Shown: positions 10,326 through 64,000 of the stretch, one piece after another
Position numbering within the stretch: position 1 is the first letter of the stretch
Layout: the number at the start of each line of letters is the position of its first letter
Origin: Thermoplasmata archaeon
Lineage (GTDB): Archaea > Thermoplasmatota > DTKX01 > JAHFTX01
NCBI GenBank assembly: GCA_023265395.1
Contig: JAHFTX010000007.1
Location: 1-64,000, forward strand
Length of the DNA stretch: 64,000 nt
Reading direction: 5' to 3'
Translations under genes and position numbers: made by a program
The notes under the pieces: generated by a model
What the model was told of the DNA's origin: nothing
Seen by the model: only the letters and a program-made list of their open reading frames with translations
Databases searched by the model: none

Positions 10326-10364
10326 GCGCACCCTGCGCCTGCCCCCGTAACCTTCAAGGGTGGC

Positions 10365-14800: not shown

Positions 14801-14940
14801 CCCTCGATGCCCAGGAGGTCGAGGTCCTCGCCGAGGTGCGACGCCGACACGCCGCGGCGCCGCACCGTGCAGGGCCGCTCCAACCGCTGGCGGTGGCCTG
14901 GCTCTCCATCGGCTCGACCCCTCGACGTCGCCGGGGCTGA
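11881..14940 (+). CDS. SNF2/RapA-type helicase-like ATPase
   Basis: A 1019-residue superfamily 2 ATPase that should translocate on double-stranded nucleic acid or remodel protein-nucleic acid complexes. Motif I is DEVGLGKT (residues about 104-111), motif II DEAH (about 202-205), motif III LLTATP, motif V STEAGAEGRNLQ and motif VI QRIGRLHRLGQ. The arrangement and QNSLRELHALVTLID fit the RapA/HepA-like branch, known in bacteria for recycling RNA polymerase and present in archaea with less defined roles. About 350 residues after the helicase core have no recognised domain and end in a helical Arg/Glu-rich stretch. Start is the ATG at 11881. Confidence 0.9.
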   Translation: MAAHARQQRPAPEAYAPVLPPWTAPTQQVLLPPQAPTPAVHLRSGIWGSGAELRLRLAAVQVLAHLRGQGLASPLGARLRPLPHQLGVAHRVIHGFGRGALLADEVGLGKTIEAGLVLHELLTRQQVHRALVLVPAALLPQWEEELRARFRLRPWVYGRDGIGAAVRSPSLQGVVLASLQTARRQPHARNLQAVGWDLVIVDEAHRLKSSSSQAHQFVASLGAPWLLLLTATPVQNSLRELHALVTLIDPLVLGSAERFEHTFLADASGRKVLRAEELRRRLATVMVRNRRATLPDLVDAGRTASTVRVVLSPSEKALYDDLSSYLAERYRIARAEGRPAHGFLVTLYQRMLASSFSTLRHALEARHGHLELVLALVTQERRSRRSAGQADQVPALGQMDLTSLGELWLDWRTTTAPTRRGGSRSATQDEPRFDPARRWVEDLSAEDLARQEEDLRVEREQLGRFQAALAALPTPTKVRRVGALVDELAAGGGAAQGRQVVLFTEFLRTQAEVSAHLRQLGHAVVEFHGGLSPEAKEEAIATFRGGAAVLVSTEAGAEGRNLQWCSTLVNLDLPWNPMRVEQRIGRLHRLGQQRTVQVVNLVSAGTVEEEVLELLAEKIGLFESVMGDLDLILGEVTSDLPLERVIMDAIAHVDPRVRDKGGEGVSSGGLAELGERFAAARAAYGAAHDLMGATVGALELGTAEGDVPLEWGLSLALHQWLLAWAAARGFPLSPPSEGIVTLPTHPSVGALSGRWRLPAACPAPGVPADVDDGPPLLWMADNDLQRELGRSLQGGATALLAPPNDAARLRGFEGIEGLVVCALRPSDDGSPPVMVEVAVGTDGSPLPADLPSLPEVAALCGTTDPSPAVSPPPPERLEQLLALALGRLERTAPPSTTAPVPQGADRWHRLEGTLRDHYADQRAQLQQEERTMRQRHTTSLVRQRSAAGERRRALLRERMLSTSSLDSLSLRRAALDAQEVEVLAEVRRRHAAAPHRAGPLQPLAVAWLSIGSTPRRRRG

Positions 14941-37028: not shown

Positions 37029-37973
37029 ATGGTCCAGCGACGCGAGACCGCCTGGCGGACGTTCGCCGCCGAATTCAACGGCAGCAACCTCCAGTACGCC
37101 GAATCTGGGGAGCGTGCCCCTTCCTACCTGGTCACCCCACTGGGGGCGCGGATCAACCGGATCTTCGTCTGCGGCGTGCTCACCGAGGTCGAACGCATGG
37201 GCGCCGAGGAGGAACCCTTCTACCGTGGTCGGGTCGCCGACCCGACAGGCTCCTACTTCATCAGCGCCGGACAGTATCAGCCTGAGGCGGCAGCGGCCCT
37301 CAGCCGGCTGCAGGCGCCTGCCTTCGTCGCCGTCGTCGGCAAGGTGCGGGTCTACTCCCCGGAACCGGGGGTCACCTACGTCAGCATCCGCGCCGAGCTG
37401 GTCACCCCCATCAACGGGCCGCTGCGCGACCTGTGGGTGCTGCAGACCTGCCAGCTGATGCGACAGCGCATCGAGGCGGTCTCCGAGGCGACCCGGATGG
37501 CCTCCCCCTCGATCGACAAGCTCGTCGAGCTGGGCTACCCACCCGCCTTGGCCGACGGCGTGATGCGCGCCCTCGACCATTATGGACCACCGGACCTGGC
37601 GCGCTACCGCAACCTGCTGGCTGACGGGCTGCGCTACGTGCTGCCCGAGTTCGCCGGGGAGCGCTCCGATCCAGCGCTCAGCGACCCTCTCGACGGCGGG
37701 GCGGGCAACCTCGGGATCCAGCGTGAGCATGCCGACGTCTATGAGCGGGTCCCCGTCGCCGACGAGCCCGTGACTGAGGCTGATGAGGAGCGACTCCTGG
37801 GGATCATCGAGCAGCTCCAGGGAGCCAAGGGCTCCGGTGCCGAGTGGAAGGACATCATCGACAAGGCCTCGGTTGCGGGCATGGACCGGGACCTGGCCGA
37901 GGAAGCCCTCAACCTGCTGCAGGACAAGGGCCTGGTCTGCGAACCGGAGATTGGCCGTCTGCGGCTCGTCTAG
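37029..37973 (+). CDS. RPA-associated OB-fold protein
   Basis: 314 residues. The N-terminal OB fold contains LGARINRIFVCGVLTEVERMG, YRGRVADPTGSYFISAGQYQPEAAAAL and FVAVVGKVRVYSP, as in COG3390 proteins that pair with archaeal RPA; the C-terminal about 130 residues are helical and end in a winged-helix-like segment (GSGAEWKDIIDKASVAGMDRDLAEEALNLLQDKGLV). ATG 37029 is chosen because AGGAGGTG lies seven bases before it; the GTG at 37020 is inside that site. Confidence 0.9.
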   Translation: MVQRRETAWRTFAAEFNGSNLQYAESGERAPSYLVTPLGARINRIFVCGVLTEVERMGAEEEPFYRGRVADPTGSYFISAGQYQPEAAAALSRLQAPAFVAVVGKVRVYSPEPGVTYVSIRAELVTPINGPLRDLWVLQTCQLMRQRIEAVSEATRMASPSIDKLVELGYPPALADGVMRALDHYGPPDLARYRNLLADGLRYVLPEFAGERSDPALSDPLDGGAGNLGIQREHADVYERVPVADEPVTEADEERLLGIIEQLQGAKGSGAEWKDIIDKASVAGMDRDLAEEALNLLQDKGLVCEPEIGRLRLV

Positions 37974-38047
37974 GTGGCGCAATCGCGCCCTGCGGGGGGG
38001 CCATCCTCCCCCCTGCGGCCAATCTTGCGCCCCTCGGCTCACCAATC

Positions 38048-38054
38048 CTTATTT
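38048..38054 (+). promoter_or_regulatory. TATA box for the formate dehydrogenase operon
   Basis: CTTATTT in an otherwise GC-rich gap, about 45 bases before GTG 38096; it predicts transcription start near 38077. Confidence 0.45.
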
Positions 38055-38095
38055 CGCCAGCCCCCGATTGCACCGGCGCATCGCCAGTGCGGTGG

Positions 38096-38557
38096 GTGGG
38101 GTCCTTGAGCGTGGGGTGGGAAGCGGTCGTCGCCGAAGAGGCATCCTCGCCCCACCCGTCGGCCCTGGCGGCGCTCCTTGCCGTCCAGGGGCGGGTCGGC
38201 TACGTCCCCGCCGAGGCGCTGGTGGCGATCGAGGCGCAGCTTGGCGTCCCCAAGGCGGAGCTCTTCGGGGTCCTGGGGTTCTACTCCGACTTGCGGACGC
38301 AGCCCCCGGGGCGTCATGTCCTGCGCGTCTGCCTGGGGGATTCGTGCTACGCGCGCCAGTCCCCCAAGGTCCTCGCGGCAGCCCAGAAGGCGCTGGGTTG
38401 CCAGAGCGGACAGACCGACAAGCGCGGGGCCGTCACCTTGGGTACCGTCTACTGCCTGGGCAACTGCGCACGCTCACCCTCGGTGGAGCTCGACGGGGAG
38501 GTCATCGGCGACGTCAGCCCGGCGAAGCTGACCAAGGTCCTCGGAGGGCTCAAATGA
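38096..38557 (+). CDS. fdsG: NAD-dependent formate dehydrogenase gamma subunit (NuoE-like)
   Basis: About 153 residues, [2Fe-2S] thioredoxin-like subunit of the NuoE/HoxE family that carries electrons to or from the flavin subunit. Four Cys lie in LRVCLGDSCYARQ and TVYCLGNCARSP. The start is uncertain: GTG 38096, TTG 38105 and GTG 38114 are all possible; the family N-terminus WEAVVAEEASS begins just after. ATGA overlap with the next gene shows coupling. Order and sizes match bacterial fdsG. Confidence 0.88.
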   Translation: MGSLSVGWEAVVAEEASSPHPSALAALLAVQGRVGYVPAEALVAIEAQLGVPKAELFGVLGFYSDLRTQPPGRHVLRVCLGDSCYARQSPKVLAAAQKALGCQSGQTDKRGAVTLGTVYCLGNCARSPSVELDGEVIGDVSPAKLTKVLGGLK

Positions 38558-40236
38558 GCGTCTCCTCCGCCGAAGCGGTCGAGACCGCCAGCCAGGACCA
38601 GACCACACCCCCGCAGCCGCTGTCGGCCGCCCCCCGATCCTGGGCCGAGAGCTGGCCCATCGACACCTCCCTGCCGCGGCTCTACCTGCCCAACGACACC
38701 ACGTCCCGGGCGGTCGGTGCGATGGAGGTCTACACCGAGCTGATGCACCGCATCGAACGAGCCCTCGGAGCGACGCCTCCGACCACCTTCGTCGGATCCC
38801 GTGGCCTGTTCTTCCTCGAGCCGCTGGTGGAGGTGGAGCTGCCCACGGGGGAGCGCGTCGCCTACGGCCCGATGCGGACCTCGATGCTGACCAAGCGCAA
38901 CCTCGAGTTGATCCTCCAGGGGCGCCGGATCGCCGGTGCGACGCTGGGGCCACTTGCCGAGCATCCCCATCTGATCGGACAGCAACGATTGGTCTTCGGT
39001 AGCTGTGGGATCCTGCCGCCGAACGACCTGCAGGCGCTGCGGTCTCAAGGCGCCTACGGGGCCCTCGAACGCGCCCTCCTCCGCTCGCCCCCCGAGGTCA
39101 TCGACGAGGTCGTCGCCTCAGGTCTGCAGGGACGCGGCGGCGCCGGCTTCCCCTGCGGCCTCAAGTGGCGCACCACCGCCGCAGCGGCGGGCTCGCCCAA
39201 GTACATCGTGGCCAATGGTGATGAGGGTGACCCGGGGACCTACGCCGACCGCATGCTCCTTGAGGGTGACCCCCACCGCTTGATCGAGGGGATGGCGATC
39301 GCCGCCTACGCGGTGGGTGCGACCGAGGGCTACGTCTACATCCGCGGCGAGTACCCCGCGGCGATCGCCTCGATGCGCACCGCCATCACCCAGGCGCGCG
39401 AGGCGGGGATACTCGGGCCACGCATGCTCGGCAGCGGTGGGCCCTTCGACCTGCGCGTCGCCATCAACGGCGGCGCCTACATCTGCGGGGAGGAGACCGC
39501 GCTGCTCGAGAGCATCGAGGGTCGGCGCGGGATGGTCCGCGCCAAGCCGCCCTATCCTGCAGAATCAGGGCTGTTCCGCAAGCCGACCGTGGTCAACAAC
39601 GTCCTGACGCTGGCATCGATCCCCTGGATCCTGCGCAACGGCGCTCGGGCGTGGAAGAAGCATGGCACCGAGGGTTCCCCCGGGACGGTGGTGCTGCAGC
39701 TGGGCGGGAGCTTGCGGACCCCCTGTCTCATCGAGGTCCCCTTCGGACTGTCGCTCAGGGAGGTCGTCAGCGGTTACGGCGGCGGGACGCCCAAGGGACT
39801 CAAGCTCAAGGCCGTCCAGTGTGGCGGCCCGCTGGGCGGGTTGTTGCCCCCACGGCTGCTCGATACTCCGGTCAGTTTCGAGGGGCTCAAGGCCGCCGGA
39901 GGCCTGCTCGGGCACGGCGGGATCGTCGTCTACGACCACCGCACCGACATGGTCGACCTCTCCCATCACTTCATGGAGTTCTGCGCACACGAATCCTGCG
40001 GCAAGTGCACCCCATGCAGGATCGGGTCGCACCGAGCCGAGGAGCTGCTCCAGAAGGTTCTTGATGGCGAGGGCTCCCCCGAGGACCTGGACCGCCTCCG
40101 GGAGCTTGCGCACACGATGACTTGGGCATCCCTGTGCGCCTTGGGGGGGTTGGCCCCTTCGCCGGTGCTCTCGGCGCTCGAGCACTTTCCGCGCGAGTTC
40201 GAGGCGCGACTCAAGCGCACTGGGGGAGGGGCCTGA
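38554..40236 (+). CDS. fdsB: NAD-dependent formate dehydrogenase beta subunit (FMN, NAD site)
   Basis: 560 residues. The N-terminal domain (LPRLYLPNDTTSRAVGA, GSRGLFFLEPLVEVELPTG) is the thioredoxin-like FdsB part without cysteines. It is followed by the NuoF-type core: GLQGRGGAGFPCGLKW for FMN, NGDEGDPGTYADR and YICGEETALLESIEG for NADH. The [4Fe-4S] site is ESCGKCTPCRIGSHR with a fourth Cys in SLCALGG near the end. This subunit exchanges electrons with NAD. It overlaps fdsA by one base. The FdsB-type N-terminus distinguishes it from complex I NuoF. Confidence 0.9.
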   Translation: MSVSSAEAVETASQDQTTPPQPLSAAPRSWAESWPIDTSLPRLYLPNDTTSRAVGAMEVYTELMHRIERALGATPPTTFVGSRGLFFLEPLVEVELPTGERVAYGPMRTSMLTKRNLELILQGRRIAGATLGPLAEHPHLIGQQRLVFGSCGILPPNDLQALRSQGAYGALERALLRSPPEVIDEVVASGLQGRGGAGFPCGLKWRTTAAAAGSPKYIVANGDEGDPGTYADRMLLEGDPHRLIEGMAIAAYAVGATEGYVYIRGEYPAAIASMRTAITQAREAGILGPRMLGSGGPFDLRVAINGGAYICGEETALLESIEGRRGMVRAKPPYPAESGLFRKPTVVNNVLTLASIPWILRNGARAWKKHGTEGSPGTVVLQLGGSLRTPCLIEVPFGLSLREVVSGYGGGTPKGLKLKAVQCGGPLGGLLPPRLLDTPVSFEGLKAAGGLLGHGGIVVYDHRTDMVDLSHHFMEFCAHESCGKCTPCRIGSHRAEELLQKVLDGEGSPEDLDRLRELAHTMTWASLCALGGLAPSPVLSALEHFPREFEARLKRTGGGA

Positions 40237-42992
40237 TGGCCGCGCCTGCCGGGCGGGTGCCACTCCCTCGGGTCGCCTCCGACCCGTTGCCGGTGCTCGA
40301 GCGCGGCACGCCGACGGTGGCCCTGACCATCGACGGAGTGCGCGTGCGCGTGCCCGAGGGGCTACCGCTGATCGAAGCGGCCAAGCTCGTCGGCGTCGAG
40401 ATCCCGCACCTGTGCCACGACCAGAAGCTCGAGCCCTACGGCTCCTGCCGCATGTGCCTCGTGCAGATCGAGGGGCGCGGCGGCTTCCCGGCAAGCTGCA
40501 CGACGAAGGCCACCGACGGGTTGGTGGTGACCACCCGCTCCACGGCGCTGACCCGTCTGCGCACCAACGTCATGGACCTCTACCTCTCCGACCATCCCCC
40601 CGACTGCCTGACCTGTGCCGCCAACAACATCTGCCCCCTCCAAGACGAGGCGGCCGACAGCGGCATCCGCAAGATCTCCTTCGTCGGGGAGCGTCACGAG
40701 TCGGCCATCGACCGCTCCAATCCCTACTTCGACTTCGATCCGACCAAATGCATCGTCTGCGTCAAGTGCGTGCGGGCCTGCGGCGAGATCCAGGGGACGT
40801 TCGCGCTCTCGCTCAGTGGCCGCGGCTTCGACACCAAGGTCATCGCCGGCGACGGGGGCCCCTTTGGGGGGAGCCCCTGCGTCAGCTGTGGGGCGTGTGT
40901 CAGCGTCTGTCCGACCGGGGCGCTGCAAGAGAAGACCATCATCGCTGCCGGCACGCCCACGGGGTCGGTGCGGACCACCTGTTCCTACTGCGGCGTCGGC
41001 TGCCAGTTCGATGCGCAGACCAAGGCCGGCCACATCATCAACCTCCAACCGGTGGGGCAATCCCCCGTCAACTTCGGACACGCCTGCGTCAAGGGTCGGT
41101 TCGGCTGGGAGTTCGTCAACTCCCCCGAGCGGTTGACGACCCCGCTGATCCGCGGTGCCGACGGCCAGCTCCACCACGCCAGTTGGGAGGAGGCCCTCGA
41201 CCGCATCGAGGAGCGGCTCAACGCCCTACGGGCAGCCCATGGCCCCGATGCGCTGGGCGGCATCAGCAGTGCTCGGGGCACCAACGAGGAGAACTACCTG
41301 ATGCAGAAGCTGATGCGGGCGGCGGTGGGCACCAACAACATCGACAACTGCGCCCGAGTCTGCCACAGTGCGACCGTCGCAGGGATGATGGAGACCTTCG
41401 GCACCGGTGCCGCCACCAACAGCCTGAGTGATATCAACCTCGCCGACGTCTTGATGGTGGTCGGAGCCAACGTCACCGAGGCCCACCCCGTCACCGGCAG
41501 CCGGATCAGGCAGGCGGTCGCCCGGGGCGCACGGCTCATCGTCATCGACCCGCGTCGCATCGCGCTGGTCGACGACGCCGACGTGTTCTTGCAGCTTCGC
41601 CCGGGCACCAACGTCGCGGTCCTCAATGGGCTGGGCCATCTGATCGTCCGCGAGGGCTGGATCGACAAGGACTTCATCGAACGGCGCACCGAGGAGTACA
41701 ACGCCTACAAGCTGACCATCGCCAAGTACACCCCTGAGTATGTCCAGGACATCAGCGGGGTCCCGCCCGACGCGCTATGGAAGGCTGCGTACCTGTACAG
41801 CCACAGTCGCGCATCGATGTGTCTGCATGGGTTGGGCGTCAGCGAGCACAAGACCGGCTCCTATGGGGTGATGGCACTGGCCAACCTGGCGATGCTCACC
41901 GGAAACGTCGGCAAACCCGGGACGGGGATTAACCCGCTGCGCGGGCAGAACAACGTCCAGGGCGCATGCGACATGGGGGCGCTGCCGCTGACCTACACGA
42001 CCTATCAGAAGGTCAGTGATGGCAAGGTGCGCAAGCGCTTCGAGGAGGCCTACGGCGTCGAGCTGCCCACCGCACCCGGCCGCAAGATCCCCGAGATGTA
42101 CGAAGCGATGCTCGCGGGGCAGATGCGCGCACTCTACATCGTGGGCGATGACATCGCCCAGACCGACCCCAACTCGGCGATGGTGGAGCAGGCGTTGCGG
42201 ACCCTCGACTTCCTCGTCGTCCAGGATATCTTCCTGACCAAGACCGCAGCGATGGCCCACGTCGTGTTGCCGGCAGCCTCCTACCTTGAGAAGGACGGGA
42301 CCTTCACCAATGGCGAGCGTCGGATCCAGCGGATCCGCAAGGTGGTCGACCCCCCGGGGGACGCCCGCGCCGACTGGGAGATCATCTGCGACGTCTCCAA
42401 CCGCTTGGGCTACCACATGCACTACGCCGACCCGGGCGAGGTCTTCGCCGAAGCTGCTGCCTTGACCCCCCTGTATTCAGGTGCAACCTACGCCCGCCTC
42501 GAGGGTGAGGGCCTCCAATGGCCGGTGCCCAACGACCGGCACCCTGGGACGACCGTGATGCACGAGAAGCAGTTCCCCCGGGGCAAGGGCAAGTTCGCCC
42601 CCCATGACTACGAACCCCCCGGGGAAGAGCCGACCGAAGCCTATCCCTTCACGATGATCACGGGCCGGGGCCTCTTCCAGTACAACTGCGGGTCGATGAC
42701 CCAGCGAACCAAGTTGCGCGCGCTCGAGCCGGAGGACCTGCTCGAGGTCAACCCTGCGGACGCCAGACGGTTGGGGATCGCCATGGATGAACGCGTCGCG
42801 CTCGAGAGTGCTCGTGGCAAGATCACCATCCGCGTGCTCCTCTCTGACCGGGTAGCGCCCGGGCAGGTATTCACCACCTTCCACTACGCTGAGACTGACG
42901 TCAATCGGCTGCTCAGCAGCAGCGCCGATGTTCTCTCCAAGTGCCCCGAGTACAAGGTGTCGACCGTCAACATCCGCCGATTGCAGCCCTGA
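40236..42992 (+). CDS. fdsA: NAD-dependent formate dehydrogenase alpha subunit (molybdopterin)
   Basis: 918 residues; oxidises formate to CO2 (or the reverse) at a bis-MGD molybdenum or tungsten site. The N-terminus has a [2Fe-2S] domain (Cys60, 71, 74, 88), a His-Cys3 [4Fe-4S] site (DCLTCAANNICPL) and two ferredoxin-type clusters (CIVCVKCVRAC and CVSCGACVSVC). The catalytic part starts near residue 245 with CSYCGVGC. The metal ligand is Cys in ARVCHS, near residue 376, not selenocysteine. The ATG overlaps the fdsB stop by one base. Long N-terminal iron-sulphur region and subunit order match bacterial FdsA rather than the F420-linked FdhA of methanogens. Confidence 0.94.
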   Translation: MAAPAGRVPLPRVASDPLPVLERGTPTVALTIDGVRVRVPEGLPLIEAAKLVGVEIPHLCHDQKLEPYGSCRMCLVQIEGRGGFPASCTTKATDGLVVTTRSTALTRLRTNVMDLYLSDHPPDCLTCAANNICPLQDEAADSGIRKISFVGERHESAIDRSNPYFDFDPTKCIVCVKCVRACGEIQGTFALSLSGRGFDTKVIAGDGGPFGGSPCVSCGACVSVCPTGALQEKTIIAAGTPTGSVRTTCSYCGVGCQFDAQTKAGHIINLQPVGQSPVNFGHACVKGRFGWEFVNSPERLTTPLIRGADGQLHHASWEEALDRIEERLNALRAAHGPDALGGISSARGTNEENYLMQKLMRAAVGTNNIDNCARVCHSATVAGMMETFGTGAATNSLSDINLADVLMVVGANVTEAHPVTGSRIRQAVARGARLIVIDPRRIALVDDADVFLQLRPGTNVAVLNGLGHLIVREGWIDKDFIERRTEEYNAYKLTIAKYTPEYVQDISGVPPDALWKAAYLYSHSRASMCLHGLGVSEHKTGSYGVMALANLAMLTGNVGKPGTGINPLRGQNNVQGACDMGALPLTYTTYQKVSDGKVRKRFEEAYGVELPTAPGRKIPEMYEAMLAGQMRALYIVGDDIAQTDPNSAMVEQALRTLDFLVVQDIFLTKTAAMAHVVLPAASYLEKDGTFTNGERRIQRIRKVVDPPGDARADWEIICDVSNRLGYHMHYADPGEVFAEAAALTPLYSGATYARLEGEGLQWPVPNDRHPGTTVMHEKQFPRGKGKFAPHDYEPPGEEPTEAYPFTMITGRGLFQYNCGSMTQRTKLRALEPEDLLEVNPADARRLGIAMDERVALESARGKITIRVLLSDRVAPGQVFTTFHYAETDVNRLLSSSADVLSKCPEYKVSTVNIRRLQP

Positions 42993-52708: not shown

Positions 52709-53662
52709 CTAGGGGTTGTCACTGGGTCCTCGTGGCGGTGCTCGCGATGATCGGGACAGCAGCGTCGCACCGTCAGTCCGGCCGTTCTCATCGATGGCGC
52801 TGCAGGCCATCGGGTCGGTGGCAGCGACGGCGCTCGAGGTGTGGGTCAGGGCGATCAAACCTACCGGGACCGCCGGTGCGCACCAGCTGAGCGCATGGTC
52901 GATCGCTTGTTGCGGTCCGAACGCTCCTGCCGGCTTGTCGAGGCGATCGACGTCGCCGGTGATCAGGGCATAGGCGCGATAGCACAGGACCCGTGTGATG
53001 ATTTCCTCTCCGACGCCGGTGGCTGCCAGTGCCGCTGCCGGTCCGGCGAACATGCCAAGCCCAGGGAGTGCGCAGTCGCCCACACGCCCACGGAGCATGA
53101 AGTCGGTCCCGCCGGTGCTGTTGCCCGCTGCCAGCAGGCCGTTGCGATCGAGGGCAACAGCGCCGATGGTGTCGAGGCCTGCAGGATAACCCTTCCATTT
53201 GGCCCAGGGTGGGTACGTGCCTGCCTTCCATCGCTTGCGTGTCTCGGCGAGGCGTTCGCGGGAGAGGGGGGTGACCGCTGCCGGCTTGTCGATCCCGCGG
53301 GTGTGCGCGAAGCGGGTGGCGCCGTCGCCGCAGAGGATCACATGGGGCAGCGCCATCACCTCCTTGGCGACCCGGATGGGGTTGGCCACCCCCTCGATCC
53401 CGACGACAGAGCCGATGGTCCCGTTGCTGTCCATCACCCCTGCATCCATCTGGAGCGAGCCGTCGATGCGCAGGCGGCTTCCGGTCCCTGCGTTGAAGCG
53501 CGGGTCATCCTCCAGCACGACACACGCCGCGACCACGGCGTCGACGGCTGAGCCCCCCTGCTGCAGCACTGCCCAGGCTGCCTCTGCGGCGGCATCGGTG
53601 CCATCGCACAACGACAGGGGCGAGCCGACGCCACCGTGGACCACAATTCGCGGTGCTACCAT
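52709..53662 (-). CDS. Isoaspartyl peptidase / L-asparaginase (Ntn hydrolase)
   Basis: 317 residues. A type III asparaginase-like precursor that should cleave itself before Thr165 in GLDTIGAVALD, exposing the nucleophile. Substrate-binding segments are FNAGTGSRL and GNSTGGTDFMLRGRVGDCALPGLGMFA. It begins with PRIVVHGGVGS. Likely reaction is removal of isoaspartyl residues from dipeptides or hydrolysis of asparagine, in keeping with peptide catabolism elsewhere in the window. It ends just before the MFS gene, whose product might move its substrate or product. Confidence 0.9.
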   Translation of the reverse strand: MVAPRIVVHGGVGSPLSLCDGTDAAAEAAWAVLQQGGSAVDAVVAACVVLEDDPRFNAGTGSRLRIDGSLQMDAGVMDSNGTIGSVVGIEGVANPIRVAKEVMALPHVILCGDGATRFAHTRGIDKPAAVTPLSRERLAETRKRWKAGTYPPWAKWKGYPAGLDTIGAVALDRNGLLAAGNSTGGTDFMLRGRVGDCALPGLGMFAGPAAALAATGVGEEIITRVLCYRAYALITGDVDRLDKPAGAFGPQQAIDHALSWCAPAVPVGLIALTHTSSAVAATDPMACSAIDENGRTDGATLLSRSSRAPPRGPSDNP

Positions 53663-53728: not shown

Positions 53729-56700
53729 CTACACCTTCTTGAGGATCGCGTCGATCTCGGAGTCGAGGTCCTCGTCCTTCTGCTCGGTCGCAGAGGACTT
53801 GCCAGTCTCTTTGGTGGCCTTGGGTGCTCCTGCAGGCTGCTGGGCCGGTGCAATGGGCGCGGCCGGGGGTGGGGTCGGGATCTTCTCGGGAGCCTTCTCT
53901 TCGGCGAAGTCCTCGAATTCCTCAGGCTCGGCGTGGTCTCCCTCGCCCTGCTCCCCGCTATCTTTGTCGCCAGTTCCTTCGGTCTTGGGGACTGGAGGCT
54001 TCTCCTTGGTGACCGGCACGATGCGTTCAGGGGCTGGAGTGGTCGATGGTGCCGCCGCAGGTGCCGGAGCAGGCGCAGGTCCCTTCGGCCTGTTGCCCAT
54101 CGAACGGACGACGAATCCGATCGCCGCACCGATGACGATGAACAGCAGGAAGAAGAGCCATGCTCCCAGAGCGGAGGAGGCGAACCCGAGGTTCTCCCCC
54201 GCCGTCCGCTTGATGGTGGTCTGCTTGGTGCCGACGTTGCCGACGGGGTCGGACGCGCTGAAGGAGAGGTTGTTGTCGCCCTCCCGCAGCTCGACGACGA
54301 CCTCTGCACTTCCTCCGGTCAGGTTGACTTCCTGGCCGCGGAACCACAGCGTCGCGCTTGCATCATCGACCGTCACGGTGACCTTGACCTTGTCTTTGGA
54401 GGTCTTCGCCGGGGCGTCGATCGTGATGGCGGGTCCTGTGCGGTCCGAGAGGATCGAGACCCGCCAGCTCGCGCTGTTACCTGCCGCGTCGGTGGCCACC
54501 ACCACGATGTCGGAAACCCCCTCGGGGACCGAGGCGCTGTCGACGAATGTCCCATTGAGGGCATCGACGGTCACGTTGTGGCCGTTGACGGTCAGGAGGA
54601 CCCCTGGTTCCGTGACCCCGGCGACCCGCACGGCAGCCTGCCGGGTCGCAAGTCCGTCACTCGGCGACATCACCGTCAAGCGCGGCGCGGTCAGGTCGAA
54701 GACCACGTCACGCTCGAACGCCGCGCTGTTGCCGACCATGTCGATGGCGACGATTCGCACATGGTGGAGCCCATCGGCCTCGAGAAGGCCGAAGGTGCCC
54801 GTGTCGTTGTTGTCCAGCGGGATGCTGATCGCCAGGCCTGCATCGATGAAGATGCTGACGGGGTCCCCGAGCTCGGAGGTCACGTGCACCGGCACCGAAG
54901 CGTTCGAGAGCAACGGCAGGGAGAGGTTCCCTAGCGCGAGCGGGCCGCTGACGTTGAGCCGCGGCAGCACAGTGTCGATGACGAGGTTGAGGAACTCTGT
55001 GCCGACGTTACCAGCCATGTCGGTGGCAGTCAGGTTGAGCTCGTGGCTTCCGTCGGTCAAGTGGACCTCGAGGCTGAAGGAGCCGTTCTCTATGGTCGCG
55101 TTCAGCCCGTCGACCGTCAGGGTGACCCCGTCGGTCGTCCCACTGATCACCAGGTCCGAGATCGCCATCGCGCCATCATCGAGGTCTGGCATGATGACCG
55201 GCGCAGTCCGGTCGATCACCAGGGTCCGTGTGAGGAGGTTGTGGTTCCCCACGCCGTCGACGGCCTCGAAGGAGAGCAGGTGCTCGCCCTCGGAGAGGCG
55301 GAGCGGGATGCTGAAGCCCAACATCCCGCCGAGCGTCCCGTTGGGGTCAGCGGTCCAGCATGGTGCTGGCGGGCAGAACGCGGTGTCGCTTTCGCCCAAC
55401 GAAACCCCATCGAGGGTGAACTCCGTGGCGTCTGCCTCGATCATCCCGTCGACTCGGAGCACTGCGGCGTTGCTGTAGAGGGTGTCCTCCGGCAAGTCGA
55501 CGAAGATCGCCGGCCCACTATGGTCGATGAGGATGGACCGCGATTCCGTGACCTCGTTGCCGCCGGTGTCCGTGGCCATCGCGGTGACGTTGAAGAGCCC
55601 CTCACCGGGGAAGGTGAGATTGGTGAACCACGACCCGACCGATCCCTCGGTCGGCTGCCAGCTCTGCTCCTCGTCGATCGAGATCTGCACCAGGACGACG
55701 TTCCCAAAGGAGTCGTTGCTCGTTCCGCTGACCAGGCCGGTCAGGTTGAGCGCTGCACCCGTCTCGAGCAAGCTGACGATTTCGACCTGGGGCGGGGTGT
55801 CATCGGGCAGCACGATGGTCACCGAAGGGGTTGCCGCAGGGTCGCGGGAGACGGTCGCCGAGACCTCTCCAAGGGTCGCTGTGAAGTCGATCGGAGAGAC
55901 GGTCTGCGTCCGGATACCCCCGAAGAGCCAATCGTCGAGGTAGATCTTGCTGGGTGCTGCAAGGTCGAGGACCTTCCCAGTGCCATCGGTGACGCCCCCG
56001 GAGACGAGGATGCCGCGAGTGTCCACTGCGGCGACGGCCGCTCCCGGGACCGGCGTCCCATCAGGGAATTCGACGGTGATATCGACCTCGTGCCCAAGGA
56101 TGACGCCACTGGTGGCACCTGCGCAGCACGACATGCTCTGGTTGAGGTCGGAATCCGTCCAAGTCGTCCCGATGAGCTGGACCCAGGCGTCATCATCTTC
56201 CAACAAGACGTCGAAGCCATTGGGCGCGACGATCGATCCGCCGTGGAGTTCGGCGTAGCTGTCCGTTCGCAGCGTCAACCCGACCAAGTTGTTCGAGATG
56301 AAGTCCGTGTCATGCGCGATGACCCGGGATTGCCACACAGCAGCACTTTCGCCTACGTCCGACTCGATCGAGCTGTCGTCGATGGTCGTCATCGATGGTA
56401 GACCGTCGAACCACAGGCCGCGATCCCGGGCAGTGACCTGGAGGTTCGTGAGGGTCGGGCCCTGAAGGTTTTGAAGGAACACCCCCTCGTTCATGGGGCT
56501 GTCGATCGTCAGGTCCGTGACGGTGGCCCTCCCGTTGATGAAGCTGGCGCCCCTGCCGCGACCCGCGTCGATGGTCATTCCGTCGACGGTGAGCTCATCC
56601 ATGTTCACGGACCGGAATCCCTCATCCCAGTATCCCTCGATGCTCACGTCCGAGGCCGAGGCGACGACTCCATCCTGGAGGTAAACGCCCACATCCGCAG

Positions 56701-59700
56701 CGGTGATGTCGATATTGTTGATTCGCGCCTGGGTGACATCCTCCATGACCACCTCAGCGCAGAAGCAGCCATTCAACCATCGAGCATAGGAACCTCCGGC
56801 GCGTTGAGAATTGTTCGTCAACGTCGCGTCCTGCAGCGTGACATTGGTCACGTCAACGGCGAAGACTGCATGGTGCGCATCAGCGTCGATACTGACGTTC
56901 TGGATCAACAGGTCCCCGCCATCTTCACCGTTGATGCTGGCGAGGTCCTGGTCATCCGTCCGTCCGCTGTTGAGGTCGAGGAAGTTGGAATTGACGATCC
57001 GGCCGGTCTGGAAACCCCCCAAGAAGATGCCCCCCGCCAGGTGGGACATGTCCAACCCGTCGATCTCGACCGAACTGGTCCCTTGACCCGAGATCAAGAT
57101 CACTGGGGGTGAGCTGGGATCATTGAACGGCCCGGTGATGGTCGAATCGCGGATAGTGATGCGATCGCCGTCACCGTTTGCCACCAGGATGCTCGTGATC
57201 GCACCTGAGGCTTGCAGGCCATCGATGGTCACAGTGTTCTGGCTTCCGTCGCCAAAATCGTAGACATTGAACAGTTGGTCCGAGCTGAGACCAACGACTT
57301 GGTCGAAGGTGACATCAGAACCTCCGGTGATACCAAACTGGTAGTTATTGGCGGATCCGATGACGTCGCCCCCCGTGACCGTCGCGGTGGTGTGGCTGAA
57401 GTCGAACGAGTTGACATTGTTCTGGATCAGCATGTCATCCAGCCGCACGTCCTCGTAGTTCTGCAACGACACGAAGTAGTCCGGCCACGTTGGGTCCCCG
57501 TACCCATTGTTGACGTCGGTGCGATCCATGACGAAACTGCGTCCAGGGGCGCCCTCGAATTCCCAATCTCCGAGGTTGTTGGACCACTCCCCATTGATCA
57601 CCAGGATGTCAGAGTTCGTCGCATCGATGTCATACAGCTGGGTCAGCTGGGTGTCGGTGAAGGTGACGTCGGAGTCGAAGATCATGTTCTCAAGATTGTT
57701 CCACCCCGACGCGCAATTGAAGGTCGAATTGGTCAACGTCACGGTCGAGTCTTCGATGTGGAAGGCATTCCCAGACGGATCGTAGACCTCCACGTCCTCG
57801 GCAGTGATCGTCGCGCCGTCGATCTGAAGGCCCCCTCCGTTGGGGTTATTGAGGAAGAGTCCGTCGATGGTTACGTCATCCGTGCGGATGCAGAAGCCGT
57901 ACTCACACCAGTCTGCGGTATCGATGCCGATATGGTCGAACCGGCTCGAGGTCACGGTCAATGTCGAGCCCGGGTCCGCTCGGAACGTCCAGCCAAATCC
58001 CCAGAACCCGACATCACTCACAGAACTGGTGAACTCCGCGGTACCGCCATCCTCGACGACCAATCGCTGGCCGAAGTCCTGCCAGAAGAGTGCAGCACTG
58101 ACCGTCGTGAGGGTCCCGCCATCTTCGATGGTGAGGTCTCCATAAAGATCGATTGATGCACCGGCCTGGAGGGTCAGATGGCCGCCATCTGAAATGATGA
58201 GGTCTCCATCAACCTGGAAGAATGCGCCCGGGTCGGAGGTGAAGGTGTTCTCGACGATCCAATCACCGGTCACCACACCTCCACTCACCGGGGGGTCATT
58301 GAGCGCCAAGGCTGGGAAGCTTGCCAGGGGGGAGACCAGCAGCAGCGCAACCAGTGCCAACGATCCCACCCAGCCCATCCGTGGCCGCGCGAGGCGAGAC
58401 ATGCGAGTGCTCGGGCCGTTCCGCGCTGCCCCTCCTCGAACTTCTGCGCCCCCTGCAGGGGCAGCACTTGCCGTCGGGGGGCGTCCCCGCTTGAGCAACA
58501 GGGCGATCAACAACCCGACGAGCAGGCCCAAGACGATGAACATCATCAGGCTGGGCGTGGTCACGCTGCCTTCCGCCCCGGCGGCGAGCTCGCGCTTGAG
58601 GTCGACCTCTGTCGAGCCGGTGTTGCCTGCGGCATCAGTCGCCGCGACAAGGACACCGTTGTGCCCGAGGCGAAGTTCGATGGTGGCCTCGAATGTCAGA
58701 TTGTTGCTGACGTTGACGGCCTCGCCGTCGACCGTGAGCGTGGCGACCGGCTCGCTGACGCGTCCACGGAAGGTGGCCCGTTGGCCATCGGTCGTCGAAG
58801 GGAGGGGATCGAGGTCGAACGTGGGTGCAATGGTGTCGCGTGTCACCAACAGGTCGGCGCGGGCCATGTTGCCTGCACCGTCGGCAGCGAGGGCGATGAT
58901 CTGGTTCTCACCCTCGCGAAGGGTAATCGAGACGCTGAACGTGCCGTCGATCTGGGGAGTGACCGGCAGCCCGACGACCGTTACGATGTTCTGGCCGTGG
59001 ACGATCCCTGCGACATCGATCCGATCTGCCCGGGTCAGGACATCATCCGCCGGGGAGAGGATCTGGAGGACGGGTGCGGTACGGTCGACGAGGATCTGTC
59101 GAGTCAGTGTGACCGTGTTGCCGGCAGCGTCTGTCACGACGATGGTGATCGTGACGAGCCCCTCGGGGAGATCCATTGTCTGGATGAACGAACCATTGGT
59201 CGCGTTGACCTGCACCCCGTTGATGGTCACCCGGGATTGGTCTGTCGATCCACTGATCGTCAGGTTGTTCGCATTGGTGACGCCGGGGATCTCCTGGTCG
59301 AGGCTGAGGCTCGGGTCGATCGAGTCGCGGGTGATGGTCTGCGTAGCCGTCGCGGCATTGCCCGCCCCATCGGTCGCCGTGACGGTGATGAGGTTCTCCC
59401 CTTCATGCACGGTGACCGTGGCGTTGAACAGGCCGTCGGTCCCGACGATTAGTGGGTCGATGGCTCCAGCAGGGCCGCTGACCGTCACGATGCTCCCAGT
59501 GTCCGTCATCCCCGAGATGAGGACGGCCTCGACGCTAGGGACGAGGCGGTTGGCACCGCCATCGAGGGCAAGGGCCGGGGCAGTAAGGTCCACGGTGACA
59601 TTGAGGGCCGAGAGGCCTAGATTGCCTGCGGCGTCGGTGCTCTCTGCGGTCACAAGATGCTGCCCTTCGGTGAGGTTGAGGGTGATACTGAAGCGACCGC

Positions 59701-62266
59701 CCTCGACGACCGCGGCAAGACCATCGACGGTGACTTCGTTCCCATCGGTCGTCCCAGCGATCAATACCGGGACGTCATTGGTCAGGCCGTCGACCGGTGT
59801 GTCGATATCGATCATCGGCAGAATATGGTCGAACGTGATGATGCGGGTCTGCTCGACGCTATTCCCTGCGACGTCCGATGCACGCACCTGCACCTCCAGT
59901 GTCGTCTCGGTCCCTGGATCGGGGATGGTGAAGCTGAACTCTGGCGACGCATTGGTCGGGTTCCAACTCATCCCGCCATCACTGCTCCAGCTCACGTGGT
60001 CGATGCCTGAGAGCAGGTCGGAGGATTCCCCGAGGAACTCGACCGGGCCGTTGCTGACGAGGTCCTGCGTCGGGGTGAACAGCACCAGGTCGGGGACGAC
60101 ATCGTCGGTGAATACGACGGTCCCGTCGAAGTCGCGGGTGTCAGGGAGCGCTGAGCGCTCGACGGTCGTGCCCGAGAAGGTCGCTCCGAAGGTATAGGAG
60201 GATTCATCGTAGACCGGGTCGTCGACGCCGTTGGCGCTGAAGATGTGCTGGCTGTGGCTGACGATTCCCGTCGGCCCGGAATTCGCGGAAAACAGCAGCG
60301 CGCCTGAGTCATCGCCTCGGAGGGTGACGCTCAGGTCCGGGATGGGGACGCCGTTCTGCCACGTCCCGCCGAGCAGCACGTTTTGACGGACATCGAAGCT
60401 ATTGCTCGGTTCCCCCCAGGGGTTGGAGGCATCCCGCACCCCACCGAAGTCGACGTTGTCGAAAGAGATCAGGTTGGTACCGTCCTGGAAACCGGCGGGG
60501 AAGAGCCCTGCATTGAGGGAGACGGTCGAATCCCTGACGAGGACAACCGCCCCGTTGTTGGCCAGCAGACCCCCACCACTTGCGGTCGAGACACTACTAT
60601 CGATGATCGTCAGGGGAGACTCGGAGGACTGGGCAATCCCCGAGCCGCAGGTGAGGACGCTGCTGCGGAGGGTCAGCCCGCCGCCACCCCAGAGGTCCAA
60701 GCAGATGCTCGCCAAGGTATTGCCGTTGAGGTTGTCGATGGTCACCGGCGCAGGGCCCTCATTCACGATCAAGGGACTCGTCCCAAAGGAATCGATGGTC
60801 AGACCATCGATCGTCGTCGAACCAGCTCCGAGGGATTGGAACAACAGTCCGCCGTCGGTGCCATCGAGGGTCAGCCCGGTCAACGTCCCCCGGCCGCCGT
60901 CGAACAAGACTCCGAATTCCGATGTCTGCGTGATAGTGACATCGGTCGCCACGACGGTCCCAGGCCCCACGATCAGCCCGGAATCCGTACCGATGGATTG
61001 TGAGGCCGAGATCCTGAGGAAGGAGTTCCCTTGGATATCGGCGAGAGCACCACCGGCCTGGACGAGGATTCCGCTGGCGGTCGCAGAGCAACCACTCTGG
61101 AGCCCTAGTCCCGGACCGTTCCCGAAGTCTCCGGAGGGTACGATGGTCGTGTCTTGCACCGCCAGGGTGCTGAATTCTGCACAGGAGATTGCGGTAGAGC
61201 CCTGGAAGAGGCCCCCCTTCAAAGTCGCTGAACTGAGCCCCCGGACGTCGATTGCCGTGTCGCTGGTGCGGAAGAAGCTACCGTCCGTCGTGACGGAGGA
61301 ACGACCCATGTCGACGATGCCTCCCTGAGCGTTGGAGATCTCGTCGTTGGTGCTCGCCAGTCTGCCGCCGTTGTCGGTGAGGAGCGCCAGGTTGATTCCG
61401 CTGAAACTGTTGTCCTGGCTCGTTACCTCTCCGCCATTGAGGTAGACCCCACCCCCGAGGTTGCTCAAGGAGTTGCCCTGGATGGTCGTCGTCGTCCCTT
61501 GATCGAGCAAGATCCCCTGATTGCCGCCGGAGAAGATGTTGTTGCTGAGCGTCGCCATCCCCTGGCTGGATCGGATTGCTTCGTTGAAGCCGTTGAACGT
61601 GTTCCCACTTATGAGCGTCGGGCCGAAGCCGAGGAGATCGATCGATCTGGAGTTGTCGTTAAATGTCGAATCCCGGATCGTCAGCGGGCCCAGAGCCGTG
61701 ACGGCAGTGTTGATGTCGATGAAAAAGCTGTTCTGGATCGTTCCTGGGACCGGACCGAACCCTACCCCGCGCGTGGAACTGGTGACGGTCAGCCCGTTGA
61801 TGGACGAGTCGGGCGTGTTGACCCAGATGCCCTGCCCCTCGTTCATCAGGACCCCCGGCATCATGAAGAACCACATGTCGTTGATGGTCGCACCATCGAT
61901 GGTGAGGCTCGAACCCTCGCGTGCCGCTAGATCATAGGTCGACCCGCCCGGTCCGACCTCGATTACCGAATCCCCCTTGATCGTCAGTTCACCGCCGCTG
62001 CTGACGATGATTCGTTGGGGCCCGCTGGAGTTCATGACCAGATGGACCCCGTCGAGGGTCAGCGAGCCCGTCGGGGTGACGTTGAGATTGCCCCCGAGGA
62101 TGATCTCGACATCCGTGTAGGACTTTGCGCCAGTGACCTCCCAGTCGCCGATGACCTCCCCCCCCGTGGGGCCAGGGTCGTTGGTGGCAAAGACGATGTT
62201 CGCGGTCCCGAGTATCGAAAGGACCAACAACGCGGTCAGGAAGGTCGTGGAGGGTTTCTGGGTCAT
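53729..62266 (-). CDS. Giant double-unit surface protein (beta-helix and Ig-like repeats, twice)
   Basis: 2845 residues in one frame. Unit 1 (residues 1-1288): signal peptide, about 600 residues of right-handed beta-helix, Ig-like/glucodextranase-B-like repeats (FDHILPMIDIDTPVDGLT, VDRTAPVLQILSPADDVL and others), a transmembrane helix near 58510-58560 and a short Ala/Gly/Arg linker. Unit 2 begins at Met 58402 with its own signal-like helix (WVGSLALVALLLVSPLASF) and repeats the plan: beta-helix, Ig-like repeats, a transmembrane helix at about 54107-54180 and a Pro/Glu/Lys-rich cytoplasmic tail. Each unit opens its mature part with the same NDP-x-GG-GDW pattern, marking ancient duplication. Topology would be out-in-out-in. 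The ATG 62266 precedes a good signal peptide. Adhesion or surface-layer role is inferred. Confidence 0.82.
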   Translation of the reverse strand: MTQKPSTTFLTALLVLSILGTANIVFATNDPGPTGGEVIGDWEVTGAKSYTDVEIILGGNLNVTPTGSLTLDGVHLVMNSSGPQRIIVSSGGELTIKGDSVIEVGPGGSTYDLAAREGSSLTIDGATINDMWFFMMPGVLMNEGQGIWVNTPDSSINGLTVTSSTRGVGFGPVPGTIQNSFFIDINTAVTALGPLTIRDSTFNDNSRSIDLLGFGPTLISGNTFNGFNEAIRSSQGMATLSNNIFSGGNQGILLDQGTTTTIQGNSLSNLGGGVYLNGGEVTSQDNSFSGINLALLTDNGGRLASTNDEISNAQGGIVDMGRSSVTTDGSFFRTSDTAIDVRGLSSATLKGGLFQGSTAISCAEFSTLAVQDTTIVPSGDFGNGPGLGLQSGCSATASGILVQAGGALADIQGNSFLRISASQSIGTDSGLIVGPGTVVATDVTITQTSEFGVLFDGGRGTLTGLTLDGTDGGLLFQSLGAGSTTIDGLTIDSFGTSPLIVNEGPAPVTIDNLNGNTLASICLDLWGGGGLTLRSSVLTCGSGIAQSSESPLTIIDSSVSTASGGGLLANNGAVVLVRDSTVSLNAGLFPAGFQDGTNLISFDNVDFGGVRDASNPWGEPSNSFDVRQNVLLGGTWQNGVPIPDLSVTLRGDDSGALLFSANSGPTGIVSHSQHIFSANGVDDPVYDESSYTFGATFSGTTVERSALPDTRDFDGTVVFTDDVVPDLVLFTPTQDLVSNGPVEFLGESSDLLSGIDHVSWSSDGGMSWNPTNASPEFSFTIPDPGTETTLEVQVRASDVAGNSVEQTRIITFDHILPMIDIDTPVDGLTNDVPVLIAGTTDGNEVTVDGLAAVVEGGRFSITLNLTEGQHLVTAESTDAAGNLGLSALNVTVDLTAPALALDGGANRLVPSVEAVLISGMTDTGSIVTVSGPAGAIDPLIVGTDGLFNATVTVHEGENLITVTATDGAGNAATATQTITRDSIDPSLSLDQEIPGVTNANNLTISGSTDQSRVTINGVQVNATNGSFIQTMDLPEGLVTITIVVTDAAGNTVTLTRQILVDRTAPVLQILSPADDVLTRADRIDVAGIVHGQNIVTVVGLPVTPQIDGTFSVSITLREGENQIIALAADGAGNMARADLLVTRDTIAPTFDLDPLPSTTDGQRATFRGRVSEPVATLTVDGEAVNVSNNLTFEATIELRLGHNGVLVAATDAAGNTGSTEVDLKRELAAGAEGSVTTPSLMMFIVLGLLVGLLIALLLKRGRPPTASAAPAGGAEVRGGAARNGPSTRMSRLARPRMGWVGSLALVALLLVSPLASFPALALNDPPVSGGVVTGDWIVENTFTSDPGAFFQVDGDLIISDGGHLTLQAGASIDLYGDLTIEDGGTLTTVSAALFWQDFGQRLVVEDGGTAEFTSSVSDVGFWGFGWTFRADPGSTLTVTSSRFDHIGIDTADWCEYGFCIRTDDVTIDGLFLNNPNGGGLQIDGATITAEDVEVYDPSGNAFHIEDSTVTLTNSTFNCASGWNNLENMIFDSDVTFTDTQLTQLYDIDATNSDILVINGEWSNNLGDWEFEGAPGRSFVMDRTDVNNGYGDPTWPDYFVSLQNYEDVRLDDMLIQNNVNSFDFSHTTATVTGGDVIGSANNYQFGITGGSDVTFDQVVGLSSDQLFNVYDFGDGSQNTVTIDGLQASGAITSILVANGDGDRITIRDSTITGPFNDPSSPPVILISGQGTSSVEIDGLDMSHLAGGIFLGGFQTGRIVNSNFLDLNSGRTDDQDLASINGEDGGDLLIQNVSIDADAHHAVFAVDVTNVTLQDATLTNNSQRAGGSYARWLNGCFCAEVVMEDVTQARINNIDITAADVGVYLQDGVVASASDVSIEGYWDEGFRSVNMDELTVDGMTIDAGRGRGASFINGRATVTDLTIDSPMNEGVFLQNLQGPTLTNLQVTARDRGLWFDGLPSMTTIDDSSIESDVGESAAVWQSRVIAHDTDFISNNLVGLTLRTDSYAELHGGSIVAPNGFDVLLEDDDAWVQLIGTTWTDSDLNQSMSCCAGATSGVILGHEVDITVEFPDGTPVPGAAVAAVDTRGILVSGGVTDGTGKVLDLAAPSKIYLDDWLFGGIRTQTVSPIDFTATLGEVSATVSRDPAATPSVTIVLPDDTPPQVEIVSLLETGAALNLTGLVSGTSNDSFGNVVLVQISIDEEQSWQPTEGSVGSWFTNLTFPGEGLFNVTAMATDTGGNEVTESRSILIDHSGPAIFVDLPEDTLYSNAAVLRVDGMIEADATEFTLDGVSLGESDTAFCPPAPCWTADPNGTLGGMLGFSIPLRLSEGEHLLSFEAVDGVGNHNLLTRTLVIDRTAPVIMPDLDDGAMAISDLVISGTTDGVTLTVDGLNATIENGSFSLEVHLTDGSHELNLTATDMAGNVGTEFLNLVIDTVLPRLNVSGPLALGNLSLPLLSNASVPVHVTSELGDPVSIFIDAGLAISIPLDNNDTGTFGLLEADGLHHVRIVAIDMVGNSAAFERDVVFDLTAPRLTVMSPSDGLATRQAAVRVAGVTEPGVLLTVNGHNVTVDALNGTFVDSASVPEGVSDIVVVATDAAGNSASWRVSILSDRTGPAITIDAPAKTSKDKVKVTVTVDDASATLWFRGQEVNLTGGSAEVVVELREGDNNLSFSASDPVGNVGTKQTTIKRTAGENLGFASSALGAWLFFLLFIVIGAAIGFVVRSMGNRPKGPAPAPAPAAAPSTTPAPERIVPVTKEKPPVPKTEGTGDKDSGEQGEGDHAEPEEFEDFAEEKAPEKIPTPPPAAPIAPAQQPAGAPKATKETGKSSATEQKDEDLDSEIDAILKKV

Positions 62267-62302
62267 GGGCAGCACCGATTGTGGGGCAGAATCGGCGGGT
62301 TT

Positions 62303-62332
62303 GATTAAATGGCTTCCCTGGGGATTATATAC
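62303..62332 (-). promoter_or_regulatory. TATA elements for the giant surface gene
   Basis: Two AT-rich elements stand out on the minus strand: CCATTTAATC (62303-62312), about 41 bases before ATG 62266, and GTATATAAT (62324-62332) further upstream. The first suits a start near 62281; the second may be an additional promoter. Confidence 0.5.
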
Positions 62333-62414
62333 AGGCGCAGCAGCCCAATCAAAAACCCTGGGGGTTGTGCTACCCTCGGGAGGCAAGGTCAGGCCATCGA
62401 ACCCATCGTATGCG

Positions 62415-62927
62415 CTACTCCCCTTTCTGGGGGGGGGCCGAGGTTTCCGGACTCGGCGGTGCGACGGCATCTTTTCCGCTCCCCTCAGGGGCGCGCAGAT
62501 TCGCCGGCTTCCTCAGTCGGCCGAAAATGTATCCTGCGGCGGTCCCGGCCGCCAGTGCGAGGAAAACCAGCAGCAAGACGAGGTCGAGATTCAATCCTGG
62601 TCCTTGGCTGGCCGCTGTTCGCGTGATCGTGAGGTTGACGGAGGTCGCATTGCCGGTTGGGTCTACCACTCGCACCTCGATGACGTTCTGTCCAAGGCTA
62701 AGAGGGACCTCGCGATCGAAGCTGCCCGTACTATTGACGGGCGTCACCTTGCCATCGATGGTGACCGTCCCATTGGGTTGGGTCGAGCCCGCAACGAGGA
62801 CCGACGATGCGCTCGTCACACCCTCGATCGGGGCGACGATGACCAGCGGTGGCCCATCTGCGCTGGCATAGCCGAGGGTCGGCAAGGTCAGCAGCACTGC
62901 CATGCAGACCCACGGCAGAAGGCGCAC
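62415..62927 (-). CDS. Single Ig-domain membrane protein
   Basis: About 170 residues from GTG 62927 (ATG 62903 is possible). A signal peptide (LLPWVCMAVLLTLPTLGYASA) is followed by one Ig-like domain of the same type as in the giant protein (VIVAPIEGVTSASSVLVAGSTQPNGTVTIDG, GSFDREVPLSLGQNVIEVRVVDPTGNATSVNLTI), a transmembrane helix (LDLVLLLVFLALAAGTAAGYIF) and a short charged tail. The open frame upstream of 62927 runs antisense through tRNA-Cys and is not coding. It is transcribed toward the giant gene, about 150 bases ahead of it, and looks like a one-domain relative or partner. Confidence 0.7.
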   Translation of the reverse strand: MRLLPWVCMAVLLTLPTLGYASADGPPLVIVAPIEGVTSASSVLVAGSTQPNGTVTIDGKVTPVNSTGSFDREVPLSLGQNVIEVRVVDPTGNATSVNLTITRTAASQGPGLNLDLVLLLVFLALAAGTAAGYIFGRLRKPANLRAPEGSGKDAVAPPSPETSAPPQKGE

Positions 62928-63029
62928 AGGGGCCCCAGGGAGGGACCTGGCAAGAGGCTTTCGTCGATGCGCTGGTCGCTGATGACTAGCGTTAAGTAGC
63001 GAGAACGGGTAGCAGCGAACCCACCCCGT

Positions 63030-63101
63030 GCGGGGGTGACAGAGCGGCCATGTGCACGACTGCAGATCGTGTTTACGGGAGTTCAAATCTCTCCCCCCGC
63101 A
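63030..63101 (+). tRNA. tRNA-Cys (GCA)
   Basis: 72 bases. Acceptor GCGGGGG (63030-63036) pairs with CCCCCGC (63094-63100). Anticodon stem CACGA/TCGTG encloses loop CTGCAGA with anticodon GCA at 63062-63064; T-arm is GGGAG-TTCAAAT-CTCTC with one G-U pair. No intron. The discriminator base is A, whereas tRNA-Cys normally has U at position 73. CCA is not encoded. It lies about 75 bases before cysS. Confidence 0.93.
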
Positions 63102-63174
63102 CTTCCATTCGACGGATGGCTCCCAGAATCGAGCTTGGTCTGACGAGGATGCTTCGGTCACGAGGTGCCCACCC

Positions 63175-64000
63175 TTGGCCCTAAGACTCTACAACAGCCT
63201 CACCCGGAGCAAGGAACCACTCCATCCCCTGACCCCGGGGATCGTCCGGATGTACGTTTGCGGACCGACGGTCTACAACTATTGCCATGTCGGCCACGCG
63301 CGCGCCTATGTCTGCTTCGACATGGTGGTGCGGTACCTCCGTCAATGCGGCCTGCAGGTCCACTACGTCTCGAACATCACCGACATCGATGACCGCATCC
63401 TGACAGCCGCCGCGCAGAGCGGGGAGTCGGCACGGGCGATCGCCGAGCGGTTCACGCAAGCCTACTTCGAGGACATGCAGCGGTTGAGTGTCTTGCGGGC
63501 GGACCATCACCCGCGGGTGACGGATACCATCCCCCAGATACTTGACCTCATCTCGACCTTGGTAGACCACGGCCACGCCTACTTCGTCGATGGTGACGTG
63601 TTCTTCGACGTTACCACGGCCCCGCAGCTGGGTGAGCTCTCGCACCAGGACCCTGAGCAACAACTTGCCGGTGCGCGCGTCGAAGTCGATGTGCGCAAGC
63701 GCGACCCGCGAGACTTCGCCCTGTGGAAGTCTGCCAAGCCTGGGGAGGAATCATGGCCCAGCCCCTGGGGTGCGGGGAGGCCCGGCTGGCACATCGAGTG
63801 CTCGGCGATGTCGATCGCCGCACACGGACCGCAGCTGGATATCCACGGGGGTGGGATCGACCTAATCTTCCCCCACCATGAGTGCGAAGTGCTGCAGAGC
63901 GAGTCTGCGACGGGCAAGCGACCCTTCAGCCGCATCTGGATGCACAACGGCCATGTGATGATCGACCAGGTCAAGATGAGCAAGTCCCTGGGAAACTTCT
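63175..64000 (+). CDS. cysS: Cysteinyl-tRNA synthetase, N-terminal part (runs off window)
   Basis: About 275 residues are visible. It charges tRNA-Cys with cysteine. Class I signatures are HVGHAR (HIGH motif) and KMSKS near the window end. Zinc ligands are expected from Cys in YVCGPTVYN, Cys in WHIECSAM, and His/Glu in FPHHECE. The start is TTG 63175: GAGGTG lies seven bases upstream and translation gives MALRLYNSLTRSKEPL, the usual CysRS beginning, while nearby GTG codons are in other frames. The tRNA-Cys gene directly upstream is the enzyme's own substrate. Confidence 0.95.
   Translation, partial: MALRLYNSLTRSKEPLHPLTPGIVRMYVCGPTVYNYCHVGHARAYVCFDMVVRYLRQCGLQVHYVSNITDIDDRILTAAAQSGESARAIAERFTQAYFEDMQRLSVLRADHHPRVTDTIPQILDLISTLVDHGHAYFVDGDVFFDVTTAPQLGELSHQDPEQQLAGARVEVDVRKRDPRDFALWKSAKPGEESWPSPWGAGRPGWHIECSAMSIAAHGPQLDIHGGGIDLIFPHHECEVLQSESATGKRPFSRIWMHNGHVMIDQVKMSKSLGNF

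Follow-up and report, generated by a model that had tools for sequence, protein, structure and literature searches.

The question raised by this locus is why one uninterrupted archaeal reading frame should encode two complete surface proteins, one after the other. The window, which is the whole stretch of 64,000 nucleotides that was analysed, has a GC content of 67% and forms the start of contig C2 in a draft genome of 2.78 Mb (75 contigs, 88.7% complete) that is rich in large beta-helix/Ig surface proteins. An ORF on its minus strand extends over 53729..62470 and has 2913 aa when counted from the first ATG. Since the first 68 codons overlap the upstream gene, whose end is at 62415, the ATG at 62266 was preferred as the start, and from there the frame runs without interruption to 53729 (minus strand; 2845 codons). 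The encoded protein consists of a signal peptide, a beta-helix, Ig-like repeats and a membrane helix, followed by a 31-residue linker, a second signal peptide and a repetition of the whole architecture, with hydrophobic segments at aa 7-30, 1233-1263, 1296-1324 and 2692-2726. Met 58402 is residue 1289 and is separated from the first membrane helix by ~31 residues (1258-1288). The initial annotation had described such a frame, with a linker of about 30 residues and a second signal-like helix at Met 58402; its coordinates and description were right, and the absence of a stop between the halves was confirmed.

We consider it probable that the frame represents a co-transcribed pair of neighbouring genes, here called A and B, which each encode a type-I anchored beta-helix/Ig surface protein and are merged in one frame with the stop of A missing. 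Gene A (58403..62266, minus strand), delimited by the ORF, Pfam, hydrophobicity and a syntenic relative, covers a signal peptide (~aa 1-27), the beta-helix, the Ig-like repeats, the membrane helix (~aa 1233-1257) and the linker. Gene B (53729..58402, minus strand), recognised from the ORF, Pfam, relatives and an N-terminal alignment, has its own ATG at 58402, a signal peptide with an A-x-A cleavage region, a beta-helix, Ig-like repeats, a membrane helix, an acidic tail that terminates in DSEIDAILKKV, and a stop. Each half thus ends in one membrane helix, which in B is followed by a stop and in A is not. Pfam models matched by the entire 2845-aa protein are Beta_helix (PF13229), Glucodextran_B (PF09136, eight stretches) and Big_13 (PF19077); the second half searched alone again gave beta-helix and Ig matches, so that the order of a beta-helix followed by Ig-like repeats is present in both halves. 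The domain content of either half is that of large Ig-like repeat surface proteins (Glucodextran_B, Big_13, Ca_tandemer and OmpL47-type models) with a right-handed beta-helix, whereas the window differs from these in having two complete precursors in one frame. No solved structure matching the ORF by sequence was found. Short cytoplasmic tail ends similar to that of half B (53729-53770) occur in five other loci (L060, L071, L075, L076 and L097), the motifs being DSEIDAILKKV, ESIDDIIGKLK, DEDIDELLKRF, DSDIDALLKKI and RSLEDIMRRLKS; the motif, which half A does not have, is possibly a docking or sorting helix common to them.

The merger is most likely recent or accidental, and not a new kind of protein, since relatives have two separate genes at the matching place. 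No close relatives were found in GTDB genome contigs or IMG/VR, and the comparison set comprised four other genomes of the class, all from other families, in which the best homologues are ~30% identical and the relatives of A and B are 25-30% identical. In one of them (genome G001, contig C331, locus L078), an asparaginase gene is accompanied by a surface protein A (1150-aa frame) and a surface protein B (1294-aa frame). The former, L078:5577-9026, is the closest syntenic relative of gene A (27% over 672 aa, E 3e-49, membrane helix included) and ends in ERRKGVPQ*, ~8 residues past its membrane helix. The latter aligns with half 2 (E 5e-29); the two have similar mature starts, DPPSSGDWIVEDNTF in the relative and NDPPVSGGVVTGDWIVENTF in half 2. 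There, B starts on the stop of A (CCCCA-ATGA-GG) and is read in another frame; the identical ATGA junction type is present in contig C134 of genome G003 (L054), which belongs to the same genus as G001, a genus of the same class that differs from that of the source genome. In the window, the stop/start overlap or abutment of these loci is absent. An Asparaginase_2-family gene (52709..53662, minus strand; PF01112, E 2.8e-61) lies directly downstream of the ORF and serves as synteny anchor; the asparaginase gene of G001 is on the opposite side of the surface pair, which indicates a rearranged neighbourhood. Given the low identity, the case for orthology of A and B with these relatives comes from synteny, gene order and mature N-termini.

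The initial annotation had offered stop-codon loss between recent tandem duplicates as one origin. Loss of a stop is the better reading, but the halves share only ~30% protein identity, which argues against a recent tandem duplication. It had also looked to related genomes for separate genes with promoters of their own; the syntenic relatives do have two separate genes with an ATGA overlap, but no separate promoter for the second. The ancestral state would then be two coupled genes, with B originally starting itself by stop/start coupling as in the relatives. Loss of the stop was probably a recent event in this lineage, the main alternative being that the consensus is wrong at the junction. 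Either a lost stop or a small rearrangement would account for the open frame. A single indel in an ancestor with an ATGA overlap is not supported as the biological cause, as no residual stop remains at ATG 58402.

How unusual such a frame is can be judged from a survey of 86 surface-type ORFs in fetched loci of the source genome and the class genomes. Two ORFs were flagged as having an internal helix and signal, the window ORF and L095, the latter being one protein in which the hydrophobic segments are weak; a convincing junction of membrane helix and signal peptide is therefore confined to the window ORF (1/86). The very long ORFs in L058, L067 and L069 contain no internal helix and signal pair. 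Tandem surface pairs, on the other hand, are common, and in all four class relatives they are separate genes; they often abut or overlap, with spacings of -4, -1, 0 or +1 nt and in one case -26 nt. Their junctions include TGATG (L040/L041), TAA|ATG (L039), TGAGATG (L069), GTGA (L072) and a 26-nt overlap (L068). The pairs with stop/start overlap (L078, L054, L040, L041, L068, L069 and L072) share with the window the order of signal peptide, beta-helix or repeat region, Ig repeats and C-terminal membrane helix; L078 and L054 also adjoin an asparaginase gene like the window, and the mature N-terminal motif is common to many class pairs. They differ from the window pair, which occupies one frame without a stop, in having a stop between the genes and usually different frames. 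In L039 both genes share one frame and nothing but TAA stands between A and B's ATG, showing that a single stop codon can be the sole separator of such genes.

Judged by their sequences, the tandem pairs of the relatives look co-transcribed. ATGA/TGATG-type stop/start overlaps are known to be translationally coupled in archaea (PMC6728339, PMC10666635), gaps of ~20 nt nearly abolishing the coupling (PMC10666635). The pairs of the relatives resemble these coupled pairs of archaea and bacteria (PMC6728339, PMC10666635) in being co-directed, adjacent genes with the start at the upstream stop. The window, by contrast, lacks that stop, and the upstream frame runs straight on through ATG 58402. The products of overlapping genes are often partners in the same complex (PMC10666635).

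The region in which the stop is missing is the linker between the first membrane helix and Met 58402 (58403..58495, minus strand), KRGRPPTASAAPAGGAEVRGGAARNGPSTR, which by direct reading is stop-free in all three minus-strand frames and by codon scores is not coding-like. Over aa 1265-1288 its GC3 is 12/24, or 0.50, compared with a mean of 0.845 for coding windows of the same genome (1.2% of 5312 windows are as low) and 0.80 for 56 other post-membrane tails (2/56 as low). The plain coding score is near the minimum of the gene. Because some other arginine/proline-rich tails score equally low, the argument is carried by the synonymous-codon score, which is independent of amino-acid choice; its value of -0.41 is reached by none of 39 tails and by 0.8% of windows. 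All of these linker statistics rest on 24 codons, over which the low GC3 and the low synonymous score speak against coding constraint. The synonymous score is low within signal peptide 2 as well, so the boundary of the linker is not sharp. A tail of gene A hidden in another frame was suggested by eye, and no frame proved clearly coding-like, the forward frames across the linker included. An intercistronic hairpin was likewise rejected, since the linker folds no better than shuffled sequences (z -0.29). At 67% GC a linker stays open easily: in homologous genes with signal peptides, between 0 and 454 stop-free codons precede the start in frame. The only unusual feature is the missing stop of gene A.

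It is possible, though not likely, that the missing stop is an artefact of assembly or consensus, such that the organism has two normal coupled genes and a stop or short stretch was lost from the metagenome consensus, for example by a wrong base from mixed strains or a small collapse. The incomplete, 75-contig state of the draft would be consistent with this, as would the finding that comparable abutting pairs in the relatives all carry a stop. The assembly also contains scaffold gaps, as seen in another scaffold of the same genome, where the tail of a surface gene (L062, 2313-6407) contains an N gap. However, the junction has no second copy in the assembly, and substitution errors in a consensus are generally rare. 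The initial annotation had further raised a sequencing error that hides a stop or a frameshift near the junction. All three minus-strand frames are without a stop from ~58510 to ~58300; a single indel error therefore gives no tidy genes and cannot simply restore two of them, so that this version of the artefact loses its basis. The same openness makes a fused precursor possible.

If the fusion is real, the fate of the second signal peptide becomes important. One proposal, that of the initial annotation, is a functional double-pass fusion in which one intact chain runs outside, through an inside loop, outside again and into an inside tail, signal peptide 2 staying uncut and serving as a re-entry helix. 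The frame is open, the topology is consistent with the basic linker lying inside, and the frequent partnership of proteins from overlapping pairs noted above (PMC10666635) could make a fusion tolerated or even useful. An alignment of 12 N-termini (both halves and 10 homologues) points elsewhere. In all of them the common mature start has D-P and G-D-W-x-V as invariant positions, and the Ala of the cleavage region is nearly invariant. Both halves have an N-terminal signal peptide with the mature start xNDPPxxGGxVxGDW, and half 2 retains every element, the A-x-A cleavage region and the mature start NDPPxxGGxVxGDW included. Because the cleavage region and mature start of the family are retained, signal peptide 2 looks cleavable and has the hallmarks of one that is cut, and a permanent re-entry helix finds no support in the sequence. 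With a linker that does not look coding-like, an arrangement that is unique among the surveyed ORFs and separate genes in the relatives, we regard the intact double-pass chain as highly improbable.

Returning to two merged genes as the preferred reading, A would be transcribed from its own promoter and start at 62266; a TATA-like element, GTATATAAT (62323..62333, minus strand), read directly from the sequence ~65 nt before the ATG, is the putative promoter. By reading, no AT-rich or TATA-like box was seen before gene B, as expected for an operon. An SD-like element, GAGGAGGGG (58429..58437, minus strand, direct reading), lies 26 nt before ATG 58402; it is too distant for a normal Shine-Dalgarno element at that ATG, and independent initiation of B is thus not well supported. 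Two routes to B are conceivable today, initiation at 58402 and read-through followed by cleavage after A-L-A. In the latter case the precursor would be cut into two separately anchored proteins, with A keeping the linker/signal-peptide hairpin. By either route, A and B would probably end up as two mature proteins anchored at the surface.

A stronger form of the read-through route is that A and B are a polyprotein: a single chain is translated, signal peptidase cuts it at signal peptide 2, and a fixed 1:1 output replaces stop/start coupling. Within the preferred explanation this belongs to the branch in which the fusion is real, as the variant with read-through as the normal route to B, and we consider it unlikely. 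As no close SD precedes ATG 58402, read-through may be the sole efficient route to B, and the cleavage region is retained; however, the linker lacks a codon signature, and there is no comparative sign of a conserved fusion among relatives in the class, none of which is from the genus or family of the source genome. Some RNA-virus structural polyproteins have internal signal peptides that are cut by signal peptidase. As in those polyproteins, translocation of a second domain can begin at an internal signal that follows a membrane helix, whereas nothing in the window indicates that read-through is selected or conserved. That the locus exemplifies an archaeal surface polyprotein, in which the coupling of partners has been replaced by in-frame read-through and cutting of the internal signal peptide yields an obligate 1:1 pair, seems distinctly improbable.

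The case is mainly a gene-calling trap, in which, at 67% GC, tandem surface genes of this archaeal class can be taken for one giant protein once a stop is missing. A wider literature search returned general papers only. The interest of the locus is low unless read-through is real, conserved and processed; should the fused frame prove genuine and be expressed, it would provide a clear example of an archaeal precursor whose internal signal peptide can be cleaved. Independently of this, the recurrent abutting or overlapping surface-gene pairs of the class suggest co-translated partner proteins at the cell surface.

Several observations concern the genomic setting. The archaeal SSU rRNA model is matched over its full length in the genome (1496 bits), although this model also scores in bacterial controls, and one gene in the window matches replication factor A/single-stranded DNA-binding protein models; both results indicate an archaeal source. 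The upstream neighbour of the ORF (62415..63161, minus strand; ORF and Pfam) encodes a small secreted Ig-domain protein with a membrane helix (Glucodextran_B). Beside it, the window encodes one of the genome's two cysteinyl-tRNA synthetases (63157-64000 and G000:C41:12991-14262), which are ~44% identical; in a scan of GTDB contigs, the synthetase beside the ORF had mostly bacterial matches and no close relative. Elsewhere in the source genome (L059, contig C66), two adjacent surface genes (5123-8593 and 8676-12068) with near-identical tails lie ~136 nt apart and are apparently a recent tandem duplicate that is still two genes. Positions 37783-40236 of the window encode a NuoF-like subunit whose N-terminus carries a long extension and which overlaps a formate dehydrogenase alpha/NuoG-like protein (40122-42992), an arrangement that suggests an NAD-linked formate dehydrogenase. 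Finally, an SNF2-like helicase at 11881-14940 resembles DISARM DrmD, DpdE and RapA, with scores well under the curated cut-offs.
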